Origin: Anaerolineales bacterium
Lineage (GTDB): Bacteria > Chloroflexota > Anaerolineae > Anaerolineales > UBA6663
Reading direction: 5' to 3'
DNA length: 34,678 nucleotides
Assembly (NCBI GenBank): GCA_020845955.1
Contig: JADLEU010000128.1
Span: 1 to 34,678, forward strand
Below, piece after piece: positions 3,411 through 17,155 of this stretch. Numbering within the stretch: position 1 is the first letter of the stretch; each line of letters starts with the position of its first letter. The position numbers and the translations under genes are program-made. Below the pieces are notes generated by a model that saw only the letters and a list, made by a program, of their open reading frames with translations, searched no databases and was not told the DNA's origin.

Positions 3411-3425
3411 GGCCTTGGCCGGCAG

Positions 3426-4202
3426 TTAGCTGCCCGTCCAGCGGGCCGGCCGTTTCTCGACGAACGCCCGCATGCCTTCCTTTTGGTCTTCCGTGCTGAA
3501 CAGAAAATAGAAGGCGCGGCGCTCGTCGGCCAGCCCATCGGCCAGGTAGGTCTCAAAGGCGTTGTTGACCGCCTCCTTGGCCAGGCGCACGGCCAGCGGG
3601 GCGCGCGCGGCGATGGCCTGCGCCAGGGCCAGCGCTTCCTCCAGATAGGTCTCCACCGGCGCGACCCGGTTGACCAGGCCAAAGCGCGCGGCCTCCTCGG
3701 CGGTGAGGAAGCGCGCGTTGAGGATCATCTCCATGGCCAGGGGCTTGCCCACGGCGCGCGTCAGGCGCTGCGTGCCGCCGGCGCCGGGGATCACGCCCAG
3801 GTTGATCTCGGGCTGGCCGAAGCGCGCGCTCTCCGAGGCCACGATCATATCGCAGCCCATCGCCAGTTCGCAGCCGCCGCCCAGGCAGAAGCCCGAGACG
3901 GCCGCGATGAGGGGTTTCTTGAGGCGCCGCAGGCGGTCCCAGCGCGCGCCGTTGTCGCGCAGCAGCATGTCCACGGCCGACGCCTCGGCCATCTCGGTGA
4001 TGTCGGCCCCCGCCGCGAACGCGCGCTCGCTGCCGGTGACCACCAGGCACCCGATCTCCGCGTCGCGGTCGAAAGCCTCCAGCGCCATGAACATCTCTTC
4101 CATGAGCACGCTGTTGAGGGCGTTCAGCGCCTTGGGACGATTGAAGCGCACCAGCCCCACGCGGCCGTGGGTCTCGCTGAGGATGTGTTGGTAATCCGGC
4201 AT
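3426..4202 (-). CDS. Enoyl-CoA hydratase/isomerase (crotonase)
   Basis: This 258-residue crotonase is expected to hydrate 2-enoyl-CoA to 3-hydroxyacyl-CoA in beta-oxidation or a related acyl-CoA route. The oxyanion-hole signature AFAAGADITEM is at 61-71. Both catalytic glutamates are present: E112 in GGGCELAMGCD and E132 in QPEINLGVIPGAGGTQRL, so it should be a true hydratase. Length and C-terminal helix (FVEKRPARWTG) are normal. The ATG at 4202 is preceded by a strong Shine-Dalgarno (AGAAGGAGAT on the minus strand). It sits 28 nt after the DinB gene and 15 nt before the AAC(3)-like gene, probably in one transcription unit. The acyl chain specificity cannot be read. Confidence 0.93.
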   Translation of the reverse strand: MPDYQHILSETHGRVGLVRFNRPKALNALNSVLMEEMFMALEAFDRDAEIGCLVVTGSERAFAAGADITEMAEASAVDMLLRDNGARWDRLRRLKKPLIAAVSGFCLGGGCELAMGCDMIVASESARFGQPEINLGVIPGAGGTQRLTRAVGKPLAMEMILNARFLTAEEAARFGLVNRVAPVETYLEEALALAQAIAARAPLAVRLAKEAVNNAFETYLADGLADERRAFYFLFSTEDQKEGMRAFVEKRPARWTGS

Positions 4203-4230
4203 CAGATCTCCTTCTGGAAGTCACGCAGGG

Positions 4231-4740
4231 TCAGGCGGCGGCGCGCAGCGCGCTCAGGTGCTCGCTGGCATGGGCGTACGCCCGCTCTGCCCACCACTGC
4301 AGTGTGCGGTTGCCCGAGGGCGGGTGAAAGCCGGCCCGCGACCAGCCGGCCGAATCCAGCGGCCGCGCCAGCGCCAGCAGCTCGCCGCGCGCCCGCGACC
4401 ACTCGGCCAGGATCGCGTCCATGGACTCGCCGGGGTCATAGTCGGCCGCCGACCAATCGTGATGAGAAAAGGGCGTCAGCACCGGCCGGTCTTCAGCCAG
4501 GATGCGCTGGACGCGCGGCAGGAAGGCACGCGCTTCCAGGTCGCGCACGTGCGCGGCGATCAGGTGCGGCGTGCGGCCTTGGGCGTCCCGGCGCTGGCGC
4601 CGCTGCTCGGCCGGGATCGCGGCCATCACCGCCGCGAACTCGCCCGGTTGGCTCTCCAGCCGCTGCAGCAGCCGGGCGCGATACTCCAGCAGTTGATCCA
4701 GCGCAAGCGGGTAGAGCGGCTGGCCGGCGGTGGTGGCCAT
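4231..4740 (-). CDS. DinB/YfiT-family four-helix protein (first of a pair)
   Basis: The 169-residue protein fits the DinB/YfiT putative metal-dependent hydrolase family, a four-helix bundle with a three-histidine metal site. The candidate ligands are H64 (LIAAHVRDLE) and H157 and H161 (YAHASEHLSAL). Members of this superfamily include thiol-dependent transferases (maleylpyruvate isomerase, bacillithiol S-transferase), so such a role is possible but not shown. The ATG at 4740 lies 10 nt after the stop of a second DinB gene, which indicates one operon and probably an ancient duplication, although the two proteins are strongly diverged. Confidence 0.8.
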   Translation of the reverse strand: MATTAGQPLYPLALDQLLEYRARLLQRLESQPGEFAAVMAAIPAEQRRQRRDAQGRTPHLIAAHVRDLEARAFLPRVQRILAEDRPVLTPFSHHDWSAADYDPGESMDAILAEWSRARGELLALARPLDSAGWSRAGFHPPSGNRTLQWWAERAYAHASEHLSALRAAA

Positions 4741-4750
4741 GGCAGTGACC

Positions 4751-5236
4751 TCAAGCAGCGCGGCCCGGCCCGCGCGCGGCGTAGTAGAGGCGCACCTTCA
4801 GCATCTGGCTGAGGTGTTCCCAGGTGTGGCCCAAGGCATACTGCGCCACCCAGCCCATCGAGATCGGCCCCAGGGCCGCGTGCAGGCCGGGCCGGTCCCA
4901 CGAGTGCGCCGGCAACAGCGCCAGTTCGGCCCGGCGGTCGGCCAGGAAGCTGGCCAGCAGGTCGTCACGCGGCCGGCCGGGGTCCCACTCGCCGCGCTGC
5001 AGCGCCGCCTCGTCGACGACGGGCAGCGGCGGGTTGTCCCGGGCGGCCATGGCCTGCAGGCGCGGTAGAAAAATGAAGTGTTCGGCAATCCACAGGTGGG
5101 TCAGGGTCTCGTGCTGGCTCCACTCGCCTTCGGCGGGCCGCCACAACGCGGCCTCGGCCGGAAGCCGCGCGACTTCCCGCGCCAGGTCGTCGGCGGATTG
5201 GCGCAGCGCGGCGAGGATGGACCCTGGCTCAAGCAT
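4751..5236 (-). CDS. DinB/YfiT-family four-helix protein (second of a pair)
   Basis: This 161-residue protein has the DinB layout: H47 in HETLTHLWIAEH and the pair H137/H141 in LGHTWEHLSQML, which together form the expected metal triad. The start was placed at ATG 5236 because the protein then begins with helix 1 (MLEPGSILAAL); the open frame upstream to 5323 has no family resemblance. A GGCAGG sequence lies just before this ATG. The gene is directly followed by the first DinB gene. Substrate unknown; a metal-dependent thiol transferase or hydrolase is the usual guess for the family. Confidence 0.82.
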   Translation of the reverse strand: MLEPGSILAALRQSADDLAREVARLPAEAALWRPAEGEWSQHETLTHLWIAEHFIFLPRLQAMAARDNPPLPVVDEAALQRGEWDPGRPRDDLLASFLADRRAELALLPAHSWDRPGLHAALGPISMGWVAQYALGHTWEHLSQMLKVRLYYAARGPGRAA

Positions 5237-5359
5237 CGGCACCTGCCTTTGTGTGTGTGCGCAACCGGCCAATGTGCCGCGCGCGGCCAGCGCCTCCCCG
5301 GCGCGGCTTGACTGGCGAAGCACCTCGGCAGCGCCGCCGCCGGCGCGATCCAGCGAGCC

Positions 5360-6214
5360 TCACTCGAGCCGAGATTGACGCGACAGGACGTGCAGCATGG
5401 CTTCGCTGGCGGCCAACCGCGGCTGGCCGGCCAGCGCCGCGACCACGGCCGGCAAACTCGGCAGTCCGCGCGCGCGCTGCTCCATCAGCATAAGCTGATC
5501 GCCCGCGGCCGGTCCTTCGGCTTGGCGCAGAAACAGCACGGCGGCCGCCAGGCCCAGCACCGGCGCATACGGGCTCAGCGCAGTGTGCTCCGCGGGCAGC
5601 GCCTGCTGGATCAACGTGCGCGCCAGGGTCTCCGCCATGGCGCCCAGGACCTCATCCGGCCGCTCGTCGTAGCGCCAGGGCGGCGAGGCGCCCCAGGCGG
5701 CCGGCGGAGGCTGGCACAGCCACACGGCCCCCGCGCGGCCGCGCACCGCCAACGCCTGCCGGCCCGGGTATAACAGGTTCGGAAAGACCGCCAAACGCGG
5801 CAGCGCGGCCGGCAGCAGAGCAGCCAGGAACCGCGCCAGGTCGGCGCGGGCCAGCACCGCCCGCAATTCAGCTTCAGCGGCCTGCCAGTCGGCCGCCGCT
5901 TGCGCCCAATCGGCGGCCGGCTGGGCCACGGCCACGAAATCGTCCACGCAGGCCGCCAACTCCGCTGGCCAGGCGCCCGCTAAAGCGGCCGCGAACAGCG
6001 CCTCGGCGCCGCCGGGGCTGGGAGCGCCGGCCAGGGCCTGCGCCGCCTGCACGGCCGGGTGAGTGCGCCAGGCCCCCAGGCGGCGCCGCGCGCTCTGGGC
6101 CGCGCGGTGCGGCTTGTATGGCCGGGCGGCCTGCTCGCGCTCGGGCCAGGCGCCCGCCGCCAGCAGGCTGCCCGCCAGCCGCAGGCCGTCGTGGAGGACG
6201 ACCTCGATCACCAT
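5360..6214 (-). CDS. Hypothetical protein, alanine-rich, not recognised
   Basis: The 284-residue protein matches no family I recognise. It is strongly alanine- and leucine-rich and looks all-helical, with no signal peptide or transmembrane segment. A possible short beta region surrounds LAVFPNLLYPG and GAVWLCQPPPAAWG at about 165-200, which resembles the middle of a soluble enzyme or chaperone-like fold. The ATG at 6214 was chosen because the protein then begins with a plausible beta strand (MVIEVVLHDG). A TATGAT hexamer on the minus strand (6242-6247) could be its -10. It sits between an SDR-like gene and a DinB gene in the same orientation, 28 nt after the SDR-like gene. Confidence 0.6.
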   Translation of the reverse strand: MVIEVVLHDGLRLAGSLLAAGAWPEREQAARPYKPHRAAQSARRRLGAWRTHPAVQAAQALAGAPSPGGAEALFAAALAGAWPAELAACVDDFVAVAQPAADWAQAAADWQAAEAELRAVLARADLARFLAALLPAALPRLAVFPNLLYPGRQALAVRGRAGAVWLCQPPPAAWGASPPWRYDERPDEVLGAMAETLARTLIQQALPAEHTALSPYAPVLGLAAAVLFLRQAEGPAAGDQLMLMEQRARGLPSLPAVVAALAGQPRLAASEAMLHVLSRQSRLE

Positions 6215-6242
6215 CGGTAGGCCGGCACCACGGGTGCCGCGA

Positions 6243-6872
6243 TCATACGCCCGGCGCTCCGTGAGCGCCAAAGAAGTCCCGGGCGCGCCGCGCCACTGCC
6301 GCCGCGGTTTCGGCCGCCGTGTCGAGGGCAGGCAGCAATTCGACCCGCACACCGCTCGCGGCCCATTCGGCGGCCAGTGCCTCGGTCAGGCCAGGCAGGC
6401 CTGCGCGGGCGGCCCACACCGCGGCGTGCGGCGGGCCGGCCGCGCGCTGGATGGTGAGGATCAGCCCCCCGCCCGTCTGGCGCATGGCGCGGGCCGCCGA
6501 CTGGCTCATGAGAAAGACGCCCTTGAGGTTGACCTCCAGGGTGCGGTTCCACTCCCATTCGTCCAGCGTGAGGGCCGGGCTGGCGGGCGCAACGTGCGCC
6601 GCGTTGACGAGCAGGTCCAGGCGTTCACCCCTTTCCAGCAGCGTGTAGAGCAGCGTCTGCGCCGCCAGTTTGTTGGAGACATCGACTGCCTCGGCCTGGG
6701 CGCGCCCGCCGGCCTGCTGGATCGCCGCGGCCGTGCGCCCGGCGCCGTCGGGGTTGACGTCGACGGCCACCACGCGCGCTCCGGCCGCGCCCAGCGCCAG
6801 CGCCAGCGCCTGCCCAATACCTCGGCCGGTCCCGGTCACCAGCGCCAGCCGCTCTGCCAACCCCGCCGCCAT
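6243..6872 (-). CDS. SDR-fold protein with degenerate catalytic site
   Basis: This 209-residue protein has the Rossmann core of short-chain dehydrogenases/reductases: TGxxxGIG at 13-20, an acidic D38 after beta-2 (NAD preference is possible), NAAH at 90-93 in place of NAAG, and the structural N115 in LEVNLKG. The active site is not intact. Where classical SDRs have Ser, Tyr and Lys, this protein reads R143 (ILTIQRAAG), V152 and R156 (AVWAARAGLPGL), with a shorter loop between them. It may therefore be a non-catalytic nucleotide-binding protein or use other chemistry. It is 15 nt downstream of the membrane-protein gene and upstream of an unrecognised gene on the same strand. A few wrong bases would not explain three replaced residues. 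Confidence 0.85.
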   Translation of the reverse strand: MAAGLAERLALVTGTGRGIGQALALALGAAGARVVAVDVNPDGAGRTAAAIQQAGGRAQAEAVDVSNKLAAQTLLYTLLERGERLDLLVNAAHVAPASPALTLDEWEWNRTLEVNLKGVFLMSQSAARAMRQTGGGLILTIQRAAGPPHAAVWAARAGLPGLTEALAAEWAASGVRVELLPALDTAAETAAAVARRARDFFGAHGAPGV

Positions 6873-6887
6873 TGCCTGCCGGCCCGC

Positions 6888-7715
6888 TTAGCCCTCAGAA
6901 CCGGCGCGCCCGGCCGACGACCACCAGATGAGGCCTAAGCCCGTCACGAACTGGATCGCAAACAAGGCCAGCCACAGCCACACCCCCGCGTTGCCCCAGG
7001 CGACCACGTGGCGCGAGGCGTCGACGATGACGACGCCAAAGATCGCAAAGAGGCCCATTAGGCTGGTGGCCAGGCCCAGGGCCATTCGTTCGCCAGGGGC
7101 CGAGAACTGCGCCAGGCCCAACAGGCCGATGGCGCCCACGGTAAAGATGACGCTGTAGGCGCGGCCGTGAAATTCATCCAATGGCCAGGGCCAATATGCG
7201 CCGATCACCGTCGGGAAAAGGAACAGGACGAAACCGTAGAGGCCCATCACGGCCATCACGCCCAAGAGCCAGTTGCGCCAGCCTGGCGGCGTCGGATAGG
7301 CTTGCGGCGCGGGCCAATCTCGGCAGCGCCACAGCGCCAGGCCGGTGATGATGGGCAGTCCAAGATAGATGAGAAACCAGCCATACGTTGCCCAGCGGGT
7401 GAAGATGAAACGGCGCGCTTCGAGAAGCGAGAACAGCAGCAGCGTAGCCGTGAAGACGAATATCATCGGCAGGATAACGCGCGCGGGCCACCAGGCGCCG
7501 GCGAAGGCGAGCACCGCGACCCCCGCGCCAGCCGACAGGTAGAACGCGCCCAGGAAGGCGGCGTTGAAAGGCGCCAACTCCCACGGCCAGCGCGGCCGCG
7601 CCCAGTCCGGGAAGAAGAACAGCGCGCCGCCGGCGCCCAACAGGATGGGCACCGTCAGCCAGAGCAGCGCGCGCAGCAGCGGCGCGAGCGGCCGATTGCC
7701 GATTTTGGACTGCAT
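6888..7715 (-). CDS. Polytopic membrane protein, unknown function
   Basis: The 275-residue product is highly hydrophobic with about eight predicted transmembrane segments: near 15-35, 47-72, 80-100, 108-128, 149-172, 186-205, 212-232 and 241-264. No catalytic motif or transporter signature is recognised; there are paired aromatic residues (PRWPW, YWPWP) at loop positions. The ATG at 7715 is supported by GGGAGG seven to twelve bases upstream; the open frame extending to 7940 lacks any hydrophobic character and overlaps the flavoprotein gene. It precedes the SDR-like gene by 15 nt, so the two are probably cotranscribed. Confidence 0.75.
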   Translation of the reverse strand: MQSKIGNRPLAPLLRALLWLTVPILLGAGGALFFFPDWARPRWPWELAPFNAAFLGAFYLSAGAGVAVLAFAGAWWPARVILPMIFVFTATLLLFSLLEARRFIFTRWATYGWFLIYLGLPIITGLALWRCRDWPAPQAYPTPPGWRNWLLGVMAVMGLYGFVLFLFPTVIGAYWPWPLDEFHGRAYSVIFTVGAIGLLGLAQFSAPGERMALGLATSLMGLFAIFGVVIVDASRHVVAWGNAGVWLWLALFAIQFVTGLGLIWWSSAGRAGSEG

Positions 7716-7801
7716 GCGACCTCCCGGCTCGACGCCGACGTGCGCGGCCGGGACTGTAGCACCAAGCGCGAGGGAGGGCAATTGCGCGGCCTCGGTCAAG
7801 G

Positions 7802-9016
7802 CTAGCCCACGGCAATTCGCAGCAGCATCTTCGGCGAAATGCCCTGGCCGGGATCGATGTTGCCCAGGCAAACGTTGACGAGTGTCGTGCGGAAGTCCGC
7901 GTGCCGCCGGGCCGCCCGGCCGGCACGATTGAGCAACCACGGACGGAAGTAGAAGTCGCGCACCCGGCAGATGGTGAGGAACGCGCGCTGGAACCGCGCC
8001 CGCATGGCGGCGGTGAAGCGGGCCGCCACTGCCTCGGGCGCAGCGCCGCGTTGCAGCGCCTCGTCCAGCGCCTCGGCCGCCACCTCGGCCGACTCAAGCG
8101 CGTAATCGATCCCTTCGCCTGTCAGGGGGTTGACCAGACCGGCCGCCTCGCCCACCAGCAGCAGACCCGGAAACGCCAGGCGGGCCGTCGGGAAGTCAAA
8201 GCGCAGCGGGTAACCCTTGACCGGCCCATTCATCGTAGCCCGCGCCACACGCCGGGCCATGAGCGGATTGGCCAGAAAGGTGTCGAGCACCTGGCGTGGC
8301 GAGTTGCGCAGCGGCGGCTGGCCGCGGCTGACGAAGTATCCCGCGCCCACGTTGGCGGCCCTGGCCGAGATGGGGAAGACCCAGCCATAGCCGGGCAGCG
8401 GCACCGACTCGAGGTGGAACTCGATATAGTCGCTGACCTGGCCCAGACCCTCGTAATAGGCGCGCGCCGCGCGGCCAAAGAGCGGTGGACCGGCCAACAG
8501 CTTGGCCCGCTCCTGCAGCGCCACGGAGGCGCCCGTGGCCAGCACGGTGTGGCGCGCGCGCAGCTCCAGCGGCCCGGCGGCCGAGCGCGCCTGGACCCCC
8601 ACAATGCGATCGCCGTCGCGCAGCACGTCGAGGGCTTCTACCCGGTCGCGATAGGCCGCGCCCGCGGCCAGGGCCTGCCGGCGCAGCAGATCGTCGAGCT
8701 GATAACGCGGCAGCACCACGATGAAGCGCGGCAGATCGCCGCGCGACGGGATCGGCGCGGAGACCGGCAGGCCATCGGGCGTGAACAGGTGGATGCCGTT
8801 GATCCGGCAGCCGGCCGCGGCTACCCGGTCGAGCAAGCCCAGCGTGCGCAGCACGGCCAGGGCACGCGGGGTCAACCCGTCGCCGCAAGTCTTGTCGCGC
8901 GGAAAGGGGCTCTTATCGATCAAGAGCACGTCGCGCCCCTGGCGGGCCAGGAAGTGAGCGAGGCTCGATCCGGCCGGGCCGGCGCCGACGATGACCACAT
9001 CGTGGATGGGCGTCAT
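7802..9016 (-). CDS. Geranylgeranyl reductase family FAD-dependent oxidoreductase
   Basis: This 404-residue flavoprotein resembles the geranylgeranyl/digeranylgeranyl reductase group (FixC/ChlP-like), which saturates isoprenoid double bonds in lipids, quinones or carotenoid-type side chains. It has the FAD dinucleotide motif GAGPAG at 11-16, the family motif PFPRDKTCGDGLTPRAL, and the second FAD motif LLVGEAAGLVNPLTGEGIDYALES. The ATG at 9016 gives a protein that starts with beta-1; the open frame upstream is antisense to a crotonase and was excluded. A TATAAT lies on the minus strand only 7 nt before this ATG, so the mRNA may be leaderless. The isoprenoid substrate is not readable; a membrane-lipid or menaquinone precursor is plausible. 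Confidence 0.9.
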   Translation of the reverse strand: MTPIHDVVIVGAGPAGSSLAHFLARQGRDVLLIDKSPFPRDKTCGDGLTPRALAVLRTLGLLDRVAAAGCRINGIHLFTPDGLPVSAPIPSRGDLPRFIVVLPRYQLDDLLRRQALAAGAAYRDRVEALDVLRDGDRIVGVQARSAAGPLELRARHTVLATGASVALQERAKLLAGPPLFGRAARAYYEGLGQVSDYIEFHLESVPLPGYGWVFPISARAANVGAGYFVSRGQPPLRNSPRQVLDTFLANPLMARRVARATMNGPVKGYPLRFDFPTARLAFPGLLLVGEAAGLVNPLTGEGIDYALESAEVAAEALDEALQRGAAPEAVAARFTAAMRARFQRAFLTICRVRDFYFRPWLLNRAGRAARRHADFRTTLVNVCLGNIDPGQGISPKMLLRIAVG

Positions 9017-9023
9017 GGACGAG

Positions 9024-9029
9024 ATTATA
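9024..9029 (-). promoter_or_regulatory. Perfect -10 box, probable leaderless start of the flavoprotein gene
   Basis: On the minus strand the hexamer TATAAT is followed by seven bases (CTCGTCC) and then the ATG at 9016. A transcript starting 6-7 nt after this box would begin at or next to the ATG. No clear -35 is seen. Confidence 0.5.
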
Positions 9030-9137
9030 CGCGAATGGGCGCGGCGGGAGCTTTGCCCGCCAGCGGCGCCGCGGCACGCGGTGACCATCCTTGGCCCGCG
9101 GCCGCGGCGATCACGCTGCCACTGCCGCGCTGAGCCT

Positions 9138-10103
9138 CTAGTCCTCGGACAAGCCCTTTCCGCACCGGCCGCAAAATGTGAACTCTTCAGGCAGGTTCTG
9201 CGCACCGCAGTGGGGGCAGGCGGCCAACGGCGGGCCCCAGAAGTACTCCGGGTGCTGGTCAGCGGCATAGGCGCGGCGCAGCGCGTCGTAGTCGGGGCGC
9301 CGTTTCTCGATGAAAGAGCGTTCACCTTCGTGGGTCTCGGGCGCCAGGTTGTGGATCGCCAACCAGTCACGGGCGTGGCCGATGGTGATGCTCCAGATGA
9401 AATCGCGCCAGGTGTTCAACTGCTGTTTCGTGTAGCGCGTGGCTTCGGGCAGTTTGCGGTAGAGCTTCTCGGCCATGCTGTCCACGGCCGCGTCGAGCCG
9501 CGCGCGGGGCACAACTTGGTTGACCAGGCCCCACTCCAGCGCCTTGGCCGCCGAGATCTCCTCGTTGAGCAGCAAGACCTCGCGCGCCCGCCGGTCACCG
9601 ACGATGAGGGGCAGAAACTGAGTGGCGCCGGCCGCGGCCACGCTGCCGTGGCTGGCGCCAATCTGGCGGATGTAGATGTCGTCGGCGGCGATGGCCAGGT
9701 CGCAGGACAGATTGAACTCATTGCCGCCGCCGACCACGATGCCGTTGAGGCGGGCCAGGGTGGGCTTGCCCAGGTTGCGCAGGCGGTCGTGGCACTCGAT
9801 GAAATCGGCCATCCATTTGTGGTAGTCGCGCGGGCGGGCCAGGAAGGCCTGCTGTTCTTTCAGGTCGGCGCCGGTGCAGAAAGCGCGTTCGCCGGCCCCG
9901 GTTAGCACCAGCACGGCGATCGCGTCGTCGTAGCCGGCGTCGCGCAGCGCCAGGCTGATCTCGCGCAGCATGGGGCCGTTAACGCAGTTGTGAACTTCCG
10001 GGCGGTTGAAGGTCAGCGTGGCACGATAGCCGCTTTTTTCATAGCGGATGTGCTGGAAGCCGAAAGACTCGGCCGGCTGGCCAGCATATAGGCGATCGGA
10101 CAT
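9138..10103 (-). CDS. Crotonase with C-terminal zinc ribbon (BamA-like)
   Basis: This 321-residue protein is a crotonase (AFCTGADLKEQ at 75-84; E129 in VVGGGNEFNLSCD) with an extra C-terminal zinc ribbon, C296-x2-C299 and C311-x2-C314. The second catalytic glutamate of hydratases is absent: the equivalent region reads RQIGASHGSVAAAGATQFLP, with Gly149 or a neighbour at that position. In wording this region resembles 6-oxocyclohex-1-ene-1-carbonyl-CoA hydrolases (BamA/Oah) more than EchA, so it may hydrolyse a ring or C-C bond rather than hydrate an enoyl-CoA; this is inference from memory of the family. The ATG at 10103 follows AGAAAGG, 15 nt after the YbaK stop, so it belongs to the operon that starts with peptidase-MA. 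Confidence 0.85.
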   Translation of the reverse strand: MSDRLYAGQPAESFGFQHIRYEKSGYRATLTFNRPEVHNCVNGPMLREISLALRDAGYDDAIAVLVLTGAGERAFCTGADLKEQQAFLARPRDYHKWMADFIECHDRLRNLGKPTLARLNGIVVGGGNEFNLSCDLAIAADDIYIRQIGASHGSVAAAGATQFLPLIVGDRRAREVLLLNEEISAAKALEWGLVNQVVPRARLDAAVDSMAEKLYRKLPEATRYTKQQLNTWRDFIWSITIGHARDWLAIHNLAPETHEGERSFIEKRRPDYDALRRAYAADQHPEYFWGPPLAACPHCGAQNLPEEFTFCGRCGKGLSED

Positions 10104-10118
10104 GGCAACCTTTCTGGG

Positions 10119-10628
10119 CTAGGCTTGCGCGGCGGCCGGCCGTGGGCCGGCGACCTCTACGATCTCGGCCGGCGTGACGCGCAGGAGCTCGGCCGGCGTA
10201 ATGCGCAGCAGGGCGTCGAGCGCGCCGCCGCCGGCATACACTTCGGGCTGCGCCAAAACGCGCGCGTCCATCAAGGTGCGCAGCGGGCGCGGATAGCCCA
10301 GGGGCGGCACGGCGCCGACCGCATAGCCGGTCAGGGCCAGCACTTGCGCCGGGCCGGCCAGCTTGAGGCGGCGGCGCGAGATGCCCAGGCTGCCGGCGAC
10401 GCGCCGGTAATCGACCCGGTGGGCGCCGTTGGCCACGACGATGACGGCCGGCGTCTCGCCGCCGTCCGGCCCCTCCACCAGAAACAAAACGGACTTCGCG
10501 ATGCGTTCGACCGGGACGCCCAGCACCCGCGCGGCTGCCTCGACGGTGGGGGTAGGCTCGGGCAGGCGCAGGAGTTCAGCCTGCACCCCCCGCGCGCGGA
10601 GGAAGGCTTCCAGGTCGCGGTCGTCCAT
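10119..10628 (-). CDS. YbaK/ProX-domain aminoacyl-tRNA deacylase
   Basis: The 169-residue protein has the YbaK/Cys-tRNA(Pro)-deacylase fold, which removes wrongly attached amino acids from tRNA. Signatures seen: PTPTVEAAARVLGVPVERIAKSVLF with the conserved K45, VIVVANGAHRVDYRRVA, and the GYAVGAVPPLG loop at 101-111. The start codon was placed at ATG 10628 because it overlaps the upstream stop (TGATG) and the protein then begins in phase with the family. The C-terminal tail contains a duplicated octapeptide (LLRITPAE/LLRVTPAE) encoded by a 24-bp tandem repeat. Which tRNA it edits cannot be deduced. Confidence 0.88.
   Translation of the reverse strand: MDDRDLEAFLRARGVQAELLRLPEPTPTVEAAARVLGVPVERIAKSVLFLVEGPDGGETPAVIVVANGAHRVDYRRVAGSLGISRRRLKLAGPAQVLALTGYAVGAVPPLGYPRPLRTLMDARVLAQPEVYAGGGALDALLRITPAELLRVTPAEIVEVAGPRPAAAQA
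10164..10211 (-). repeat. 24-bp tandem duplication inside the YbaK-type gene
   Basis: Two adjacent 24-bp units (10164-10187 and 10188-10211, each beginning CTCGGCCGGCGT on the plus strand) differ at a few bases and encode LLRITPAE then LLRVTPAE. The duplication is in frame. Confidence 0.7.
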
Positions 10629-10996
10629 CAGCGCTTGGGCGCGACGCCCGCGGCCAGCGGCTGCTGGCCCGGCGCCGGGACATCCTCCATGTGCTCGGCA
10701 AACAAGAGCGTGGCTAGCTTGGGCGCCAACTGCACCAGGCACTGCCCGGCCGCCACGCCCTCGGGCGAAGCCATGGCAGCCGCCAGCGCCGCCCGGCTGG
10801 CGAAGTGCAGTTCATGCACCAGATAGATTTCGACTGGCCCGGCCGGGCCGCCGTGCGTGTGGCTGACGACGACCCGCTTCAAGCCCGGCAGGCGCTCAGC
10901 CAGCGGGACAAACTGCTCCGACCAGCGCCGCTCAAACGCGGGCGGATCGGGCGGTTGGCTGAAAAGGATGACCAGCTTGTAGGTGTTGGCCGTCAT
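10628..10996 (-). CDS. EthD-like dimeric alpha/beta-barrel protein
   Basis: This 122-residue protein resembles the EthD family (small ferredoxin-like dimeric barrel). It has the expected start (YKLVILFSQPPDPPAFERRW), the central PGLKRVVVSH strand, and a YLVHELHFASRAALAAAMASPEG segment followed by a terminal strand ending near LLFAEH. Family members act in small-molecule degradation or as accessory proteins, but no active residue can be assigned. Its ATG overlaps the peptidase-MA stop (ATGA) and its TGA overlaps the ATG of the YbaK-type gene, so the three are probably translated together. A proline/alanine-rich tail follows the fold. Confidence 0.78.
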   Translation of the reverse strand: MTANTYKLVILFSQPPDPPAFERRWSEQFVPLAERLPGLKRVVVSHTHGGPAGPVEIYLVHELHFASRAALAAAMASPEGVAAGQCLVQLAPKLATLLFAEHMEDVPAPGQQPLAAGVAPKR

Positions 10997-12786
10997 CGCT
11001 CAGTCCCGAGCCCGCGCGGGCGCGGCCAGGAGCGGCTGCCAGCCAGCAGCTCCCAGCCACCGGCGGCGCGCACCAGCGTCAGGCGGTCAAGCCGCGGCCA
11101 CTCGCGAATGGCAGCCACTTCGGCCGACCGGCCGTTGAGGGAGATGGCCTGCGCTTCGTAACCAGCCAGCAACAGCTCCGAGACCAGGCGCAGGTGGTCG
11201 GCGGCCAGGGGCACGGCCAGCAGATCGCCGGTATCGAGGGCGGCGTTGACAGCGGCGAGCAGGTCCGACGCGCGGCCATAATCGGCGGCGTACAGCGCGC
11301 GGCCGGCCCCGACCAGCATGACTTCCAGCGCGATGTTGTCGGGGGCGCGTGGGTGGCGCAGGAAGTCGGCCACCAGTCCGCGCTGCCGGGCGCTTCGGGC
11401 GTCGGGCAGCCAGGCGGCCAGGAAATAGGCGGAGGGGTCCTTAAGGTACTGATAGCGGCGCAGCGTATCGAAAAAGGCAACCGTCAGGCGCAGATCCTCG
11501 ATCTCGGCGGCGGTAGGCCGCAGCCCAGCCAGATAGCCCAGCCATTCGGTTTCCATCTCTGCGAGCGTGAGGCCGTAATGCGCGCGCAGCCCGGCATCCA
11601 GAATGGCCGCATCGGACGGCGCCGGCTGGAACGAGGCGTACATCTCCAGGAATCGGTCCCAGCCGTCGCGATCGACCAGGTACTGGATAAAGGCGCCAGC
11701 CTGGAGATAGCCAATCTCGTGCTGGGCGGGGTAAAAGCGGTTGGCCAGCACTGCCAGCGGGACGTATTGATTGAGGGCCACGGCCGCGGCGGCGCGCTCG
11801 GGGAGCGGCTCGAGCTTGAAGTGGCCGCCCGCCACGTACACCGCCAGGCCCTCCGTCATCATGGTCGGCCTGGATTGCGAGAGGCGGCGGTCGAGGATGT
11901 GAGTGCTTTCGTGAGCAAAGATGCTGAAGAGCTCGGTGACGGCCGGGTTACGATCGAGATAGCTCAGCGCGATTTCGCTGGAGGCAAAACCGCCGTGACC
12001 TAGCAGGCGGCTGACCAGGTTGAAGACGACCTTTTGCTGCTGGGTAACGTCCAGCACTTGGGCCACGTGGGCAAAGGCCGCATCGGCCTCGGCGCGGATC
12101 AGGTCAAGGTCACGCGCCGCGGCAGTGCCGGTCAGGTAGTGAAAGATGCAGCAGGCGCTCTCGGCCTGTGCCCACCTGGCCGCCGGCTCAGGATCAAGGC
12201 GCTCGGCCGCCGGAAGTAAGGTGACGGTTACGGCCAACTCTTGCTCAGGCGGCGGGTCGCCCTCGCCGGCCGAGGCCGGGGCCACCACCACCACCAGCGT
12301 CTGCGCGCCCTCGCGGCCGGTGGTGTCCCATACCCACGTAAACGTCGCCTGAAGCCGCCCCCCCAAGCCAAATGGGCGGAAGTTGGCGATCGCCAGGGGC
12401 GGGCCGGAGCGAGAGTCGAGGTAGAGCCTCACTGGCGCGCCATCCCAGTTGTGGGGCGCATCATGGGCCAGCACCTCAATGCTGACGACATCGCCTGAGT
12501 AAAGGCGCGGGTCGGGGTGAAAACGCACGCTCTCGGCGGTGAGGCGGTACTCGCCCGTGAGCGTGGAAGGCGCGGCCCGGGTTGGCGCGGGCCGGGTGGC
12601 GGCCGGCGTTGCCGTGGGCGCCAGCGCCAAGGTGGGCTGCACGGCGAGGGTGAGCGCCGGCGCTGGCGTGGAGGACGGCACTGCGACAGAGGCTGTCGAG
12701 GCGGCCGGGGTGGGCGTTGGCGGCGTGGGCAGCAGAAAGCTGCAGGCCAGCGTCGCGACCAGAAGCAGGGGCAGCCACTTGCGCAT
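10993..12786 (-). CDS. Secreted peptidase-MA-like gluzincin metalloprotease
   Basis: The 597-residue protein has an N-terminal hydrophobic signal (about 4-19) ending at C15, a weak lipobox context (TLAC), followed by a Pro/Thr/Ala-rich linker to residue 75. A beta-rich domain covers about 78-195. The catalytic part carries HESTH at 292-296 with a third ligand E312 in EGLAVY, typical of peptidase-MA zinc proteases acting outside the membrane. A helical C-terminal half follows. The start at ATG 12786 is chosen over the GTG at 12804 because the signal peptide then begins correctly and a TAGAAT box lies 8 nt before it. First gene of an overlapping set with EthD-like and YbaK-type genes. Substrate unknown. 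Confidence 0.85.
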   Translation of the reverse strand: MRKWLPLLLVATLACSFLLPTPPTPTPAASTASVAVPSSTPAPALTLAVQPTLALAPTATPAATRPAPTRAAPSTLTGEYRLTAESVRFHPDPRLYSGDVVSIEVLAHDAPHNWDGAPVRLYLDSRSGPPLAIANFRPFGLGGRLQATFTWVWDTTGREGAQTLVVVVAPASAGEGDPPPEQELAVTVTLLPAAERLDPEPAARWAQAESACCIFHYLTGTAAARDLDLIRAEADAAFAHVAQVLDVTQQQKVVFNLVSRLLGHGGFASSEIALSYLDRNPAVTELFSIFAHESTHILDRRLSQSRPTMMTEGLAVYVAGGHFKLEPLPERAAAAVALNQYVPLAVLANRFYPAQHEIGYLQAGAFIQYLVDRDGWDRFLEMYASFQPAPSDAAILDAGLRAHYGLTLAEMETEWLGYLAGLRPTAAEIEDLRLTVAFFDTLRRYQYLKDPSAYFLAAWLPDARSARQRGLVADFLRHPRAPDNIALEVMLVGAGRALYAADYGRASDLLAAVNAALDTGDLLAVPLAADHLRLVSELLLAGYEAQAISLNGRSAEVAAIREWPRLDRLTLVRAAGGWELLAGSRSWPRPRGLGTER

Positions 12787-12794
12787 CTTGACCG

Positions 12795-12800
12795 ATTCTA
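12795..12800 (-). promoter_or_regulatory. -10 box TAGAAT (extended TGC) before peptidase-MA gene
   Basis: On the minus strand TGCTAGAAT matches an extended -10 (five of six hexamer bases plus TGn). It ends eight bases before the ATG at 12786, which places the transcription start at or next to the start codon. Confidence 0.45.
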
Positions 12801-12808
12801 GCACGCTC

Positions 12809-14158
12809 TCAACTGCAGTAGCGAGTCACCACGTCGTAGAGCACCTGCAGGCCCCACCCCAGGCCCTCGATGGGCGCGCGCTCGTCATGGGCGTGGAACA
12901 TTTCCATCAACTTCATGCCCGGTGGCAGCTTCATCGGTGCAAATCCGTACGTGGGCACGCCCAGGGGAGCCAGATACTTGGCATCGGTCGCGGCAGACAT
13001 CATGTAGGGCAGCACGGCCGCCGCTTGGGGATCGTGGGCGCGCAGGCTGTCGGCCATGAGCTTGAACAGCGGCGTGTCGTGCGTGATCTGCAAGGGCGGC
13101 GCCTCGAGCGCGACCTCGAACTCGAATTGGGCTCCCAGCAGGCCGCGCAACTCGGCCAGAAAGCTGTCGGTGGTAAAACCGGGCAGGATGCGGCCGTCGA
13201 GCGTCGCCTCGGCCACGGCCGGGATCACGTTGGTCTTGTAGCCGGCCGCCAGGCCAGTGGGCGTGGCCGTGTTGTGCAGCAGCGCGTACAAGAAGGGTTG
13301 GAGGTCGTTGTCCTTGAGCTCTACCTGGAAGGCCCGCTCGGCTTCCACCGGCGACTTGAGGCTGTGCAGCAGCCGCCCCATCGGCGAGGCGCCAGCCGCC
13401 CGGCTGGCCGCCTCAAGAAAGCCGGCCGCTGGGTTGGTGAGGTGGTAAGGCAATCCCTCTACGGCCAGACGGCGCAGCCCGCGCGCTAGATGCACCACGG
13501 CGTTATCCTGGTGCGGCATGGAGCCGTGGCCAGGACGGCCCCGGACCCGCGCCTTGAGCCAGCAGGTGCCCTTCTCGGCGACCTGGATCAGGTAGACCGG
13601 CCGCCCAGCAAAGTCCATGTTGTAGCCGCCAACCTCGCTGAGGGCAAATTCGGCCCGCAGCAGATCAGCGTGATGGCGCGCCAGCCAGGCGACGCCGTAA
13701 CCGGCTGGCCCACCGATCTCTTCGTCGGCCGTGGCGGCGAAGATCACGTCACGCTTGAGCGCCACGCCCTGGCGCTTGAGCAGCAGCATCACCATCAACT
13801 GCTCGGCCACCGTGTCTTTCATGTCGGCCGCGCCGCGCCCCCACACGCAGCCATCATGGACCTCGCCCGCAAAGGGCGGATGGGCCCAGGCCGAAGCCTC
13901 GGCTGGGACCACGTCGGTATGGCTGAAGAGCAGCAGAGGCGGAGCCTGGCCGCTGCCGGCCAGCCGCACGACCAGGTTGCCGCGGCCCGGCGCCGACTCA
14001 AGCACCAGCGGGTCGAGGCCCTCGGCGCGCAGCACACCAGCCAGATATTCGGCGGCCAGGGTCTCGTTGCCGGGGGGGTTGGTCGTGTCGAGCCGCAACA
14101 ACGCCTGCAGGTGCCGCACGACTTCGGCCGTTACGGCCGGCCAGTTCGGAGAGGACAT
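12809..14158 (-). CDS. M20-family zinc metallopeptidase
   Basis: This 449-residue protein is an M20 dipeptidase/deacylase of the CPG2/DapE/PepV type. Metal-binding residues are recognisable: H80 and D82 in LLFSHTDVVPAE, bridging D112 in GRGAADMKD, general base E146 with ligand E147 in TADEEIGG, and a C-terminal His in MFHAHDER. The lid domain lies between about 185 and 310 (GHGSMPHQDNAVVHLARGL). There is no signal peptide, so it is cytosolic. ATG 14158 is preferred over GTG 14203, because it has GGAG eleven bases upstream and a candidate -10 at 14194-14199. Its substrate (dipeptides or N-acyl amino acids) is not readable. It is divergent from the NB-ARC/TPR gene. Confidence 0.92.
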   Translation of the reverse strand: MSSPNWPAVTAEVVRHLQALLRLDTTNPPGNETLAAEYLAGVLRAEGLDPLVLESAPGRGNLVVRLAGSGQAPPLLLFSHTDVVPAEASAWAHPPFAGEVHDGCVWGRGAADMKDTVAEQLMVMLLLKRQGVALKRDVIFAATADEEIGGPAGYGVAWLARHHADLLRAEFALSEVGGYNMDFAGRPVYLIQVAEKGTCWLKARVRGRPGHGSMPHQDNAVVHLARGLRRLAVEGLPYHLTNPAAGFLEAASRAAGASPMGRLLHSLKSPVEAERAFQVELKDNDLQPFLYALLHNTATPTGLAAGYKTNVIPAVAEATLDGRILPGFTTDSFLAELRGLLGAQFEFEVALEAPPLQITHDTPLFKLMADSLRAHDPQAAAVLPYMMSAATDAKYLAPLGVPTYGFAPMKLPPGMKLMEMFHAHDERAPIEGLGWGLQVLYDVVTRYCS

Positions 14159-14193
14159 GCCGCTTGTGCTCCAATTTGGAAGGGAATGAAGGC

Positions 14194-14199
14194 ATTTTA
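14194..14199 (-). promoter_or_regulatory. Candidate -10 (TAAAAT) for the M20 peptidase
   Basis: TAAAAT on the minus strand, five of six consensus bases, about 35 nt before the ATG at 14158, with a GGAG ribosome site between them. No good -35 is present. Confidence 0.3.
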
Positions 14200-14225
14200 G
14201 CACGAGGCCGCGAAGACGAACATAT

Positions 14226-14241
14226 TAACCGACCGCTAACC
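14226..14241. promoter_or_regulatory. Direct repeat with 11-bp period between divergent genes
   Basis: The sequence TAACC occurs at 14226-14230 and again at 14237-14241, exactly one helical turn apart (on the minus strand GGTTA-N6-GGTTA). It lies just upstream of the expected -35 positions of both divergent promoters, a usual place for an OmpR/PhoB-type regulator. A third TAACC follows the plus-strand -10 at 14270-14274. Confidence 0.35.
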
Positions 14242-14263
14242 ACGAGGTATTTTGGCTCGGGTC

Positions 14264-14269
14264 TATAAT
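14264..14269 (+). promoter_or_regulatory. Perfect -10 box upstream of the NB-ARC/TPR gene
   Basis: TATAAT matches the consensus exactly in an otherwise GC-rich region; no good -35 is found 16-18 bp upstream, so an activator may be needed. Transcription from here would give a leader of about 150 nt containing two inverted repeats. Confidence 0.45.
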
Positions 14270-14290
14270 TAACCTCTCGGGCAGCCTCTC

Positions 14291-14322
14291 ACAGCGCTGC
14301 GCCCCTGGGCGAAGGGCGCTGT
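14291..14322 (+). repeat. Nested hairpin in the NB-ARC/TPR leader
   Basis: ACAGCGC at 14291-14297 pairs with GCGCTGT at 14316-14322, and inside it GCCC pairs with GGGC at 14301-14310. It can fold in the predicted leader RNA. There is no U-run behind it, so it is not a simple terminator. Confidence 0.45.
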
Positions 14323-14373
14323 TCTCCAGGCAGGCGGCTGGTAGGGCTGACACAACCAATACTTCATGCTTGG

Positions 14374-14393
14374 GCCAGGCGGATCCGCCTGGC
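14374..14393. repeat. 20-bp perfect palindrome
   Basis: GCCAGGCGGATCCGCCTGGC is its own reverse complement over all 20 bases, centred at 14383/14384 and 36 bp before the start codon at 14429. It can act as a dimer-binding operator or form an RNA stem in the leader. Confidence 0.7.
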
Positions 14394-14428
14394 GGCCAGT
14401 CACGTGATACGCGCGGAGAACGGTGCGT

Positions 14429-17092
14429 ATGGCCAGCGCAGCCACTCGATCGCCCCAGCCGGAGTCCGGCCGGGCGGACAGCCTAACGCTAGGCGGCCAG
14501 GCCGCGGTGACGCCGTACACGGGCGTGGCGCCGCTGGTCGTGGAGGCCGAGCGGCTGCGCGCCGCCGAAGCCCGGTTGGCGCGCCTGCCCACCAGTGTGC
14601 GGCCACAAACCGGCCACCTGGCGTCTGGCTCGCGCCTGCCCTTCCCGCGCAACCCGCTCTTCACGGGCCGCGATGCTGACCTGCGCGCCCTGGCTCAGCA
14701 GTTGGCGGCTGGGCCAGACGCGAACGGACAAGCGGCGGCCGCGGTTGGCCCGGGCGGTATTGGCAAGAGCCAACTGGCGCTCGAATTCGCGCTTCGGTAC
14801 GGCCAGTTTTTCGCCGGCGGGGTGTTCTGGCTGGATCTCAGCACGGCCAGCAACGTCCCGGCCGAAATTTGCCAGTGCCAGGGCGCCGTGGAGCCTGAGC
14901 ATCAGGCCGATTTCGGCCGTCTGCCGCAGGGCGTCCAGCTCAAGCTGATCCTGGCAGCGTGGCAGAGCCCGCTCCCGCGGCTGCTGATCTTCGACAACTG
15001 TCTCAGCGATCACCTGCTGGAAACCTGGCGCCCACCCGTCGGCGGCTGCCGAATCTTGATCACGAGCCGCCACCTGGTGTGGCCGATGGCCGTCGGAGTT
15101 CAATCGCAGGTGCTGGGCGTGCTGCCGCGCGCCGACAGCCTGGCCCTGCTGCGCAAGTTCCGCCCAGATCTGCCGCCCACCGACCCGGGCCTCAACGCGC
15201 TGGCCGAGGAGGCCGGCGATCACCCATTAGCTCTGTACCTGGCTGGACGCTACCTGGAGCATTATCGAGATGTGGCGCTGGGTCAGCCGACTGCCTATCT
15301 GACCACGCTGCGCCAGGCCCTACGCCAGGACGGCAACCGATCGGTAGGCGCGGGGCACGAACCAAAGATCGCGGCGGCGTTTCGAATCAACAGCGCCGTC
15401 CTTGACCCGATCCACCCAGTCGATGCGCTGGCCAGCCAAGCGCTGGCGCAGGCCGCCTGCTTGGCGCCTGACCTGCCCATTCCGCGCGCGGTGTTGCCGC
15501 TCGCCCGTCAGATCGACCCGCAGAGCGACGCGGCCCGGTTGTTCGAAGAGGCCTTGCGCCGCCTGGCGCGGCTGGGCCTGATCGAGGAGGGCGCGCAAGG
15601 GGGGCTGTGGCTTCCGCGCGTGCTGGCGCGCCTGGTGTTGGCCCAAATCGCCGGCACCACGCTGCCAGAACAGGTCGAGCTCGCGCTGCTGAGTGAGGCG
15701 GAACGCCTCAACGCCGCCGGACAAGCGGCGGCCTTGCAGAGCTGGCAGGCTCACCTGGCCTGGGTGGCCCGATCGGCGGAACGACGCCGCAGCCCCCTGG
15801 CCGCGCGGCTTTACAACGAGCTGGGCTATCACGCCCGGCTGCGCGGCGCGCTGGCCCAGGCCCGAATCTATCACGAGCGATCCGTGAGCCTCGGCGAGGC
15901 GACGCTGGGCCGCGACCACCCCGACCTGGTCACCTGGCACAACAACCTGGGACGGGTGCTGAAGCTCCTGGGTGATTTGCCCGGCGCCCGGCAGAAGCTC
16001 GAACGGGCGCTCGCGATCGGCCAGCAGGTGTTCGGGCCCGCATCGGAGGAGGTGGCCACGCTGCATAACAACCTGGGCCTGCTGCTGCACGATCAGGGCG
16101 ACCTGGCCAACGCGCTGCCCCACTTCGAGCAGGCCGTCGCCATCGGCGCGCGGACGCTGGGGCCCGATCACCCGGCCATGGCGATCCGCCACAGCAATCT
16201 CGGCCGGTTGTGGTTCAACCTGCGGGGCCTGGCAAACGCGCGCGCGCACTTTGAGCGCGCCCTGGCCATCGGCGAGCAAGCTCTGGGCGCAGACCATCCG
16301 GACCTGGCAGCCCGGCACGACAGCCTGGGGCAGGTACTGCATGCCCTCGGCGACCTGGACGGCGCCCGGACGCACTTCGAGCGGGCCCTGGCACTGGGCG
16401 CGCCAGCGCTGGGTCCGGTGCACCCGGAGGTCATGACGTGGCAGTCGCACCTGGGGCGGGTGCGGCGCGAATTCGTCAGCTGGTACGACAACGAGGGCCG
16501 AGGCGCGTACGATCAGGGCGACCTGGCGGGCGCCCGCGGGCACTTTGAGAAGGCGCTGGCGCTCGGCGCACAGGCGCTCGGCCCTGAGCATCCCGACGTG
16601 GCGACCCTGCACAACAACCTCGGCCGGGTGCTGCACAACCTGGGCGACACAACGACGGCGCGCTTTCACATCGAGCGCGCCCTGGCCATCGGCGAACAGA
16701 GCCTTGGCCCGGAGCATCCCGCCATTGCTTACCGGCACAGCAACCTGGGCCGGGTGCTGCACGACCTGGGTGATATGGGCGGCGCGCAGCTGCACTACGA
16801 GCGCGCCCTGCGCATCGGCGCCGCCGCCCTGGGGCCAAATCACCCCGACATGGCCACCTGGCACAACAACCTGGGCCGGGTATTGCACGACCTGGGTGAC
16901 CTGACGGTGGCCCGTATTCACTTTGAGCGCGCCCTGGCAATCGCCCGACAAACGCTCGGTCCCGATCACCCTGACGTCACCACGCTGCACAGGAACCTCG
17001 AGCCGCTCATGACGGCCGATAACGGCGCCGCCAAGCCGCCGCCGCGGATCTTGGACCGCCTGACGCGTTTTATTCGCCCCCCGCGCCGATAG
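14429..17092 (+). CDS. NB-ARC (STAND) ATPase with nine TPR units
   Basis: This 887-residue protein has a short N-terminal region (1-75) with no recognisable effector domain and then an NB-ARC ATPase. Walker A is GPGGIGKS at 107-114, Walker B is RLLIFD ending at D189, the sensor-like ILITSR is at 209-214, and GDHPLAL follows. A helical winged-helix-like segment leads into nine 42-residue TPR units (463-854) of the kinesin-light-chain type (NNLGRVLHDLGD...HFERALAIGEQ..LGPDHP). Such STAND proteins oligomerise when the repeats sense a ligand. Between units 5 and 6 there is an extra one-third repeat. A GTG at 14423 is an alternative start; GGAG at 14415-14418 fits the ATG at 14429 better. No signal peptide: cytosolic. 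Confidence 0.88.
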   Translation: MASAATRSPQPESGRADSLTLGGQAAVTPYTGVAPLVVEAERLRAAEARLARLPTSVRPQTGHLASGSRLPFPRNPLFTGRDADLRALAQQLAAGPDANGQAAAAVGPGGIGKSQLALEFALRYGQFFAGGVFWLDLSTASNVPAEICQCQGAVEPEHQADFGRLPQGVQLKLILAAWQSPLPRLLIFDNCLSDHLLETWRPPVGGCRILITSRHLVWPMAVGVQSQVLGVLPRADSLALLRKFRPDLPPTDPGLNALAEEAGDHPLALYLAGRYLEHYRDVALGQPTAYLTTLRQALRQDGNRSVGAGHEPKIAAAFRINSAVLDPIHPVDALASQALAQAACLAPDLPIPRAVLPLARQIDPQSDAARLFEEALRRLARLGLIEEGAQGGLWLPRVLARLVLAQIAGTTLPEQVELALLSEAERLNAAGQAAALQSWQAHLAWVARSAERRRSPLAARLYNELGYHARLRGALAQARIYHERSVSLGEATLGRDHPDLVTWHNNLGRVLKLLGDLPGARQKLERALAIGQQVFGPASEEVATLHNNLGLLLHDQGDLANALPHFEQAVAIGARTLGPDHPAMAIRHSNLGRLWFNLRGLANARAHFERALAIGEQALGADHPDLAARHDSLGQVLHALGDLDGARTHFERALALGAPALGPVHPEVMTWQSHLGRVRREFVSWYDNEGRGAYDQGDLAGARGHFEKALALGAQALGPEHPDVATLHNNLGRVLHNLGDTTTARFHIERALAIGEQSLGPEHPAIAYRHSNLGRVLHDLGDMGGAQLHYERALRIGAAALGPNHPDMATWHNNLGRVLHDLGDLTVARIHFERALAIARQTLGPDHPDVTTLHRNLEPLMTADNGAAKPPPRILDRLTRFIRPPRR
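15815..16990 (+). repeat. Tandem 126-bp units encoding TPRs, with one truncated unit
   Basis: Nine 126-bp units start at 15815, 15941, 16067, 16193, 16319, 16487, 16613, 16739 and 16865. A 42-bp remnant (16445-16486, encoding SHLGRVRREFVSWY) lies between units 5 and 6 and equals exactly one third of a unit. Units 7-9 are the most alike at DNA level. Confidence 0.85.
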
Positions 17093-17149
17093 CAGCTCGG
17101 GCCATCCGGATCATACCGAGCGCCGCTGGCGCAGTGCCCCGCCCGGCGT

Positions 17150-17155
17150 TATACT
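17150..17155 (+). promoter_or_regulatory. Candidate -10 (TATACT) for the kinase-glycosidase cluster
   Basis: TATACT matches five of six -10 bases in the 108-bp gap between the TPR gene and the kinase gene. The -35 at 17 bp spacing (TGGCGC) is poor. Transcription would start near 17162, about 40 nt before the ATG at 17201. Confidence 0.4.

Follow-up and report, generated by a model that had tools for sequence, protein, structure and literature searches.

A crotonase with a zinc ribbon from an Anaerolineales bacterium as a candidate ring-opening acyl-CoA hydrolase

What might a crotonase do that has a glycine in place of its second catalytic glutamate and a zinc ribbon at its C-terminus? Such a gene lies in the window analysed here, a stretch of 34,678 nucleotides that corresponds to contig C128 in the 6.06 Mb assembly of an Anaerolineales bacterium. 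The original prediction, made from the letters alone, had described a crotonase that is fused to a ribbon and lacks the second glutamate. This description was borne out by the ORF (with an ATG start), its domains and its residues (Table 1). The interpretation offered with it, a role in alicyclic or aromatic acyl-CoA breakdown, was supported in part.

Table 1. Features of the crotonase gene and its surroundings in the window
Feature	Position	Strand	Evidence
321-aa crotonase ending in a zinc ribbon, candidate ring-opening acyl-CoA hydrolase (oxepin-CoA hydrolase candidate)	9138..10103	-	
Crotonase core, residues 16-273	9285..10058	-	Pfam PF00378, AlphaFold2, PDB matches
Zinc ribbon, residues 294-318, CxxC-x11-CxxC	9150..9224	-	DUF7577 over cut-off, Cys spacing, pLDDT
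E129, first catalytic glutamate, kept (GGGNE)	9717..9719	-	Column comparison with PaaF, PaaG, MenB, BadI-type, BamA
G149 replacing second glutamate (RQIG)	9657..9659	-	Same column as second Glu of E. coli PaaF
EthD-family protein, two genes upstream of crotonase	10628..10996	-	TIGR02118 57 bits vs cut-off 30.5
Protein with a YbaK-type aminoacyl-tRNA editing domain, located between the EthD and crotonase genes	10119..10742	-	PF04073 97 bits
Second crotonase, PaaF-type enoyl-CoA hydratase, further down strand	3426..4202	-	PRK05862 364/396, PaaF model 316/371 bits

Residues 28-273 of the protein match ECH_1 (PF00378) with 163 bits. The AlphaFold2 model, made from a 39-row alignment, has a mean pLDDT of 91.6 and a pTM of 0.88, with a pLDDT of about 88-89 in the ribbon region. 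The top Foldseek match to the model is E. coli MenB, and enoyl-CoA hydratases are also among the top PDB matches; VIA-align gave Z 33 against enoyl-CoA hydratases (model residues 15-276) and Z 31 against MenB (residues 9-234). The fold matches listed cover the crotonase part only (residues about 9-276), and the ribbon lies outside them.

The catalytic residues are more telling when compared column by column. The labels first and second glutamate follow the numbering of the rat hydratase. In the window protein E129 is kept and G149 occupies the column of the second glutamate of E. coli PaaF, so the two catalytic glutamates of a classical enoyl-CoA hydratase (PaaF/ECH) are not both present. Glutamate and glycine occupy these columns in all 97 family rows of the alignment, and also the equivalent columns of L152-L154, three BamA proteins that score above the cut-off of TIGR03200, the Oah/BamA model. 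The window protein thus shares with Oah/BamA the crotonase family, glutamate and then glycine at the catalytic positions, and GS next, and the predicted resemblance of its active-site region to BamA/Oah holds. Three PaaF rows have two glutamates, three PaaG rows have serine or threonine and then phenylalanine, and valine and glycine are found in E. coli MenB and in two BadI-type proteins of Paracoccus, one of which is annotated badI. Oah hydrates a cyclic enone and opens its ring. A glycine at the second position would leave space for a ring rather than for a linear enoyl chain.

None of the named NCBIfam models accounts for the protein. Its best scores were 160 bits for MenB, the top score of any model, 155 bits each for BadI and DpgD, and 142 bits for Oah, all far under the cut-offs. 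Is it then a MenB- or BadI-type enzyme, a naphthoate synthase or a 2-ketocyclohexanecarboxyl-CoA hydrolase? By raw score these named models come closest, MenB is also the first Foldseek match, and both types have the glycine at the second position. However, the two scores are under half of the cut-offs (343 for TIGR01929 and 468 for TIGR03210), valine takes the place of the glutamate that is invariant in the family, and the MenB and BadI-type rows compared lack a ribbon and form a separate branch outside the family. Membership in either model was therefore rejected, and a function of this type is highly improbable. The protein also falls short of TIGR03200 (142 bits, cut-off 464) and differs from Oah/BamA in having only 29-33% local identity to the three over-cut-off BamA proteins.

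How widespread is this kind of crotonase? One contig scan found 225 relatives, of which 80 loci were kept at 55-83% identity (best segment). According to the record titles, they belong to Chloroflexota, Planctomycetota, Ignavibacteria, Vampirovibrionales, Melainabacteria, Bacillota, Acidobacteria, Actinobacteria, Armatimonadetes, and others. A careful tree was built from 100 rows, 97 of the family and 3 of BamA. The PaaF, PaaG and MenB rows, the two BadI-type rows, L128-L130, L155 and L156 were left out of it, as were duplicates of named loci, partial rows (L132), and identical sequences. L128, L129 and L130 (from genomes G169, G188 and G150) form a second, distant set of ribboned crotonases with 36-38% identity, whose active-site context differs (GGGFE and SPG). 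One branch (support 100/99) divides the family into 24 rows outside and 73 rows inside, the latter including the window gene. The gene contexts follow this division. Among the 24 outside rows, 16 are labelled as having bcr/bzd neighbours and none as paa-type; among the 73 inside rows, 43 are labelled as having paa-type neighbours and none as bcr. The minimum number of changes of gene context on the tree is 1. The labels were taken from clustering and contig coordinates, independently of the neighbour survey by tblastn.

That survey covered 81 loci, 72 of the paa-type clade (the window included) and 9 of the benzoyl type. In the 72 loci, matches were found to PaaF (38), EthD (34), PaaG (28), HADH and thiolase (22 each), PaaA (19), PaaK (12), PaaB and PaaC (10 each), ALDH (6), and Had-like proteins (3), and to Bcr subunits in none. 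At least one of PaaA, PaaG, PaaK and EthD lies in 51 of them, and PaaF and PaaG occur together in 28. The nine benzoyl-type loci gave BcrB and BcrC (7 each), BcrA/D and Had (6 each), thiolase (5), and PaaF (2); no match to PaaA, PaaG or EthD was found in these nine by tblastn. Near L064, for example, lie the reductase subunits bzdN (504 bits) and bzdO (722 bits) and a benzoate-CoA ligase family protein (662 bits), all over cut-off. Benzoyl-type members thus sit in bcr/bzd clusters, where an Oah is needed (7 of the 9 loci), and the window clade differs from Oah/BamA in having paa-type rather than bcr genes beside it. The first branch of the clade consists of L070 and L071 of Bacillus, which have a PaaK-like ligase, a Had-like dehydrogenase, HADH, PaaF and thiolase nearby and no PaaG or PaaA match by tblastn; this gene set looks more like the lower pathway of the benzoyl type.

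In 19 of the 72 clade loci, mostly of Ignavibacteria and Planctomycetota, none of the sought genes was found nearby. Such loci, together with the predicted crotonase fold, would suit an ordinary beta-oxidation enoyl-CoA hydratase or isomerase with a decorative ribbon. Against this stand the glycine that replaces the second catalytic glutamate in every family row and the hydratase models listed, all of which score far under their cut-offs, so that no ordinary EchA family is a clear best match. I regard this alternative as quite improbable.

Within the window, the YbaK-type editing protein is probably a mere neighbour, and no match to a paa oxygenase gene was found by tblastn in window positions 1001-18200. 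PaaA of this genome (505 bits, over cut-off) is on contig C327 (7.6 kb), not beside the window gene; C327 also has a PaaB-like frame and an aldehyde dehydrogenase, which may serve another pathway. What ties the window gene itself to paa is its clade, an EthD gene nearby, and the PaaA elsewhere in the genome. Two other genes of the window were noted. An Antibiotic_NAT family protein (2592-3410, minus strand, 91.7 bits, cut-off 25), whose C-terminal part is rich in Cys, adjoins the PaaF-type hydratase, and an ORF at 17168-18400 (plus strand), which by eye resembles a sensor histidine kinase, has an N-terminal four-Cys motif, CPQC...CRAC, perhaps a ribbon on an unrelated domain.

The search for benzoyl-CoA pathway genes suggested by the original prediction was rewarded on another contig. 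Contig C68 has a cluster with BcrC (254 bits), BcrB (221 bits), two BcrA/D-type activases, a Had-like dehydrogenase (TIGR03201 is its best model, 244 bits), and a Dch candidate (TIGR03189 is its third best, 160 bits); the equivalog scores of this cluster are all below cut-off. It also encodes a ribboned crotonase that is 48% identical to the window protein and has Oah as its best model (204 bits, likewise below 464). The cluster corresponds to L104 8056-15373, and beside it are two PaaK-like ligase frames and ABC-transport-like frames, named by resemblance (L104 1-5698). A place beside bcr/bzd, had and dch was thus found for the C68 protein and not for the window gene or its clade. The benzoyl-pathway copy is the C68 protein, and the window gene is its paralogue.

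Could the window protein be a second Oah of the benzoyl-CoA pathway in addition to the C68 copy, acting perhaps in the breakdown of a substituted benzoyl-CoA? It shares the glutamate and glycine signature with the over-cut-off BamA proteins, its own genome has a benzoyl-CoA cluster, and among the crotonases of the genome it ranks next after the C68 copy as the most Oah-like (172 bits for the C68 copy, 119 for the window protein, and 58 for the next). On the other hand, the labelled contexts divide cleanly on the tree, Bcr subunits are absent from all 72 clade loci surveyed, and in five genomes (G000, G034, G093, G106 and G611) both types occur, with one member each, which would suit two separate tasks. 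A second Oah is unlikely. Of the two roles first predicted, alicyclic breakdown found no support, and the aromatic role stood in altered form, with the benzoyl copy being the C68 paralogue and the window clade being paa-type.

Which step of a paa pathway would need such an enzyme? In E. coli, PaaZ covers both middle steps of the pathway, as oxepin-CoA hydrolase and as semialdehyde dehydrogenase. As laid out in passages of PMC4498308, the pathway needs the epoxidase PaaABCE, the isomerase PaaG, an oxepin-CoA hydrolase, a semialdehyde dehydrogenase, and then PaaJ, PaaF and PaaH. The same passages state that in many bacteria PaaZ is the dehydrogenase part only, and the identity of the ring-opening enzyme is questioned there. 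Passages of PMC9007349 likewise describe a separate dehydrogenase in many bacteria, with a hydrolase that is, to the knowledge of its authors, unidentified. In passages of PMC13186573, PaaZ is treated as the ring-opening enzyme, and the string 'chloroflex' does not occur.

No match to the PaaZ hydratase domain was found by tblastn in the 81 loci. The locus L036 illustrates what remains. It has PaaA (524 bits, over cut-off), PaaF-like (310/371), PaaG-like (308/345) and PaaH-like (371/669) proteins, and L043 has PaaA-like (131/280), PaaF-like (309/371) and PaaG-like (300/345) proteins and EthD (106.5 bits, over cut-off). For the other crotonases of these two loci, PaaF is the second and third best model and PaaG the best. 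Since those two score as PaaF and PaaG, the family member is the spare crotonase. The fullest paa clusters have PaaF and PaaG and no PaaZ; thus the family crotonase is left for the ring-opening step. For an enzyme with an Oah-like signature, oxepin-CoA hydrolysis would be the nearest reaction available in the paa pathway. I infer the substrate, the reaction and the mechanism, the reaction from gene context and signature: the protein would be a ring-opening acyl-CoA hydrolase of the crotonase fold with Oah/BamA-like chemistry, and the window clade likely the oxepin-CoA hydrolase where the fused PaaZ is missing. I place this proposal just on the probable side.

At some loci the oxygenase itself is unusual. 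At L043 (3623-4426), L048, L059, L063, L089 and L091, the phenylacetate-type cluster has a PaaA-like oxygenase subunit that is divergent, and no match to PaaB or PaaC was found in these six loci. In addition to the low score at L043 given above, the genomes of L048, L059, L063 and L091 have PaaA scores of only 108-139 bits. These loci may suggest that the ring to be opened comes from another aromatic-CoA oxidation product, made by PaaA-like oxygenases, rather than from phenylacetate as oxepin-CoA. However, PaaA is accompanied by PaaB and/or PaaC at L032, L035-L042, L045 and L047, PaaA of L036 is over cut-off, and the clusters with PaaA-like subunits also have PaaG and PaaF. Another oxidation product is thus an unlikely substrate, and oxepin-CoA is preferred. 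At L032, the family member has kept its ribbon and directly precedes PaaF, PaaA and PaaC. There, at 7998-9815, the ribboned member runs without a stop into a PaaF-like crotonase in a frame of 605 aa; the record has ambiguous bases, and a fusion and a hidden stop are both possible. A frame of 494 aa, which I take to be HpaB-like (4-hydroxyphenylacetate monooxygenase), lies near an aldehyde dehydrogenase and paa genes at L135 (2077-3561) and L161 (3838-5322).

Do PaaA and PaaZ follow the family across whole genomes? I searched 49 genomes, which lie behind 50 of the 80 loci. PaaA (E<=1e-20) was found in 35 of the 40 paa-type-clade genomes and is over cut-off in 23; the other 12 matches are sub-cut-off, 11 of them at 76-138 bits, and five genomes have no match. 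At the same threshold, none of the eight benzoyl-type-only genomes gave a match, nor did the single genome that has both types. PaaZ was found in none of the 49 genomes at E<=1e-80 with all candidates scored, and the controls Thermus and Deinobacterium were positive. In the genome of the window, no PaaZ over cut-off was found among the 4 of 16 candidates scored. The combination expected of an oxepin-CoA hydrolase of this kind, a genome with PaaA and without PaaZ, was therefore observed both here and in the clade.

A survey of 249 genomes of the class adds a caution. PaaA is over cut-off in 46 of them, and no PaaZ over cut-off was found in any of the 249 with up to 4 candidates scored per genome. 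Family members were sought among up to 9 candidates per genome. PaaA is over cut-off in 9 of the 14 genomes with a paa-type-clade member vs 37 of the 235 without (one-sided Fisher p 1.2e-4), and BcrC exceeds 240 bits in 4 of the 14 vs 12 of the 235 (p 0.008); G611, which has both types, was excluded from these tests, and the p values overstate independence because the genomes are related, a factor that the counts of this survey do not allow for either. BcrC over 240 bits was found in all five genomes with a benzoyl-type member above 390 bits vs 11 of the 244 others; in 9 of these 16 genomes, a family member lies within about 5 kb of BcrC. PaaA is present in three of the five benzoyl-type genomes and BcrC, as given above, in 4 of the 14 paa-type genomes, which means that the types are not exclusive genome-wide in the class.

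The remaining 37 of the 46 genomes with PaaA over cut-off have no paa-type-clade member. Since PaaZ is missing from them too within the candidates scored, another hydrolase must exist, and the window-type gene is not obligatory. For the same reason, the absence of PaaZ is a weak argument for the family, because it extends to these 37 PaaA-bearing genomes. Sixteen paaA regions were examined. Ten of them, from genomes without a family match (E<=1e-50), showed no match to the window gene or to the PaaZ hydratase domain; among the other six, the gene is present in the region of G164 only. Nor was a protein over the NF046063 cut-off (300 bits) found in any of the 249 genomes, that of the window among them, with up to 10 candidates scored per genome.

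What of the ribbon? The four cysteines predicted at 296-314 are there (296, 299, 311 and 314), and residues 295-318 score 33.0 bits with DUF7577 (cut-off 28) and 23.5 bits with Zn_Ribbon_1, just under its cut-off of 25. A ChsH2-type rubredoxin-like ribbon was rejected (zf-ChsH2, 14.3 bits vs cut-off 23.2). The ribbon is no accident of one assembly or trait of a single sequence: it was found in 55 of the 97 family rows used for the tree and is absent from 42, a count made without the distant ribboned rows L128-L130. All 24 rows outside the main branch have it; inside, 31 of the 73 rows have it and 42 do not. The minimum number of changes of ribbon state is 6. With BamA as the outgroup, the ribbon looks ancestral in the family and repeatedly lost, although the very long branch that leads to BamA (4.93 changes per column on either side) makes the root unsure. 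Nor is it a general BamA trait. The frames of the three over-cut-off BamA proteins end without a ribbon, another difference from the window protein, and in the C68 protein the TIGR03200 model reaches position 349/360 ahead of it. Codon-position changes in the ribbon were compared with L024-L027 over only 25-27 codons.

Since the 42 clade rows without a ribbon keep the glutamate and the glycine, the ribbon is not required for catalysis in many members. This points to a structural or partner role, dispensable in some lineages. The four-Cys ribbon probably binds zinc and may serve stability or partner contact rather than catalysis. For partner binding, as envisaged in the original prediction, the DUF35 domain of a hydratase-aldolase pair described in the abstract of PMC11321319 offers an analogy only.

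How does the family compare with the enzymes described or proposed for this step? A model named 'oxepin_alt' (NF046063), which I take to represent the enzyme H281DRAFT_04594, is not matched over its cut-off by the window protein. PaaZ would share with the window clade the pathway step proposed here; its hydrolase domain differs in having a hot-dog fold rather than the crotonase fold, according to passages of PMC4498308. The window protein is not a fused dehydrogenase and hot-dog hydratase but a single crotonase domain with a ribbon. ECH-Aa of Aromatoleum, a hydratase with oxepin-CoA hydrolase activity, resembles the candidate in being a separate enzyme that was offered for this step where PaaZ is the dehydrogenase only. 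However, it also has a hot-dog fold and its activity with crotonyl-CoA is about 1,000-fold higher, as passages of PMC4498308 and PMC9007349 state, and its physiological role is doubted in the latter. H281DRAFT_04594, which Price et al. 2022 put forward as an alternative oxepin-CoA hydrolase, is likewise an S-type hydratase-like candidate for a pathway without PaaZ and lacks the standard hydratase residues. In passages of PMC9007349, this Paraburkholderia protein is proposed as the hydrolase with serine and methionine at the named catalytic positions, in contrast to the glutamate and glycine of the window family.

The single change of gene context on the tree allows an evolutionary reading. It is conceivable, though I would stop short of calling it probable, that a ring hydrolase of anaerobic benzoyl-CoA breakdown was recruited once to the O2-dependent phenylacetyl-CoA route as the missing oxepin-CoA hydrolase (in PaaZ-less Chloroflexota, Vampirovibrionales/related Cyanobacteriota, Planctomycetota, and others), and that part of the clade retains the inherited zinc ribbon. 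In the open-licence literature of PubMed Central, I found no paper joining oxepin with 6-oxocyclohex-1-ene-1-carbonyl, none on BamA with a zinc finger, and nothing for Vampirovibrio and phenylacetate, Planctomycetes and oxepin-CoA, or Chloroflexi and benzoyl- or phenylacetyl-CoA; the papers listed for Oah and zinc did not bear on the question.

The window-type family is a further concrete oxepin-CoA hydrolase candidate in several phyla, beside the partial answers given by ECH-Aa and the one Paraburkholderia crotonase. Chloroflexota, Bacillota and Acidobacteria that bear a benzoyl-CoA reductase can have an Oah-like enzyme that scores far below the cut-off of the BamA model; thus, surveys based on that cut-off would miss it. 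If the evolutionary reading is true, one hydrolase scaffold connects the anaerobic and the aerobic breakdown of aromatic rings.
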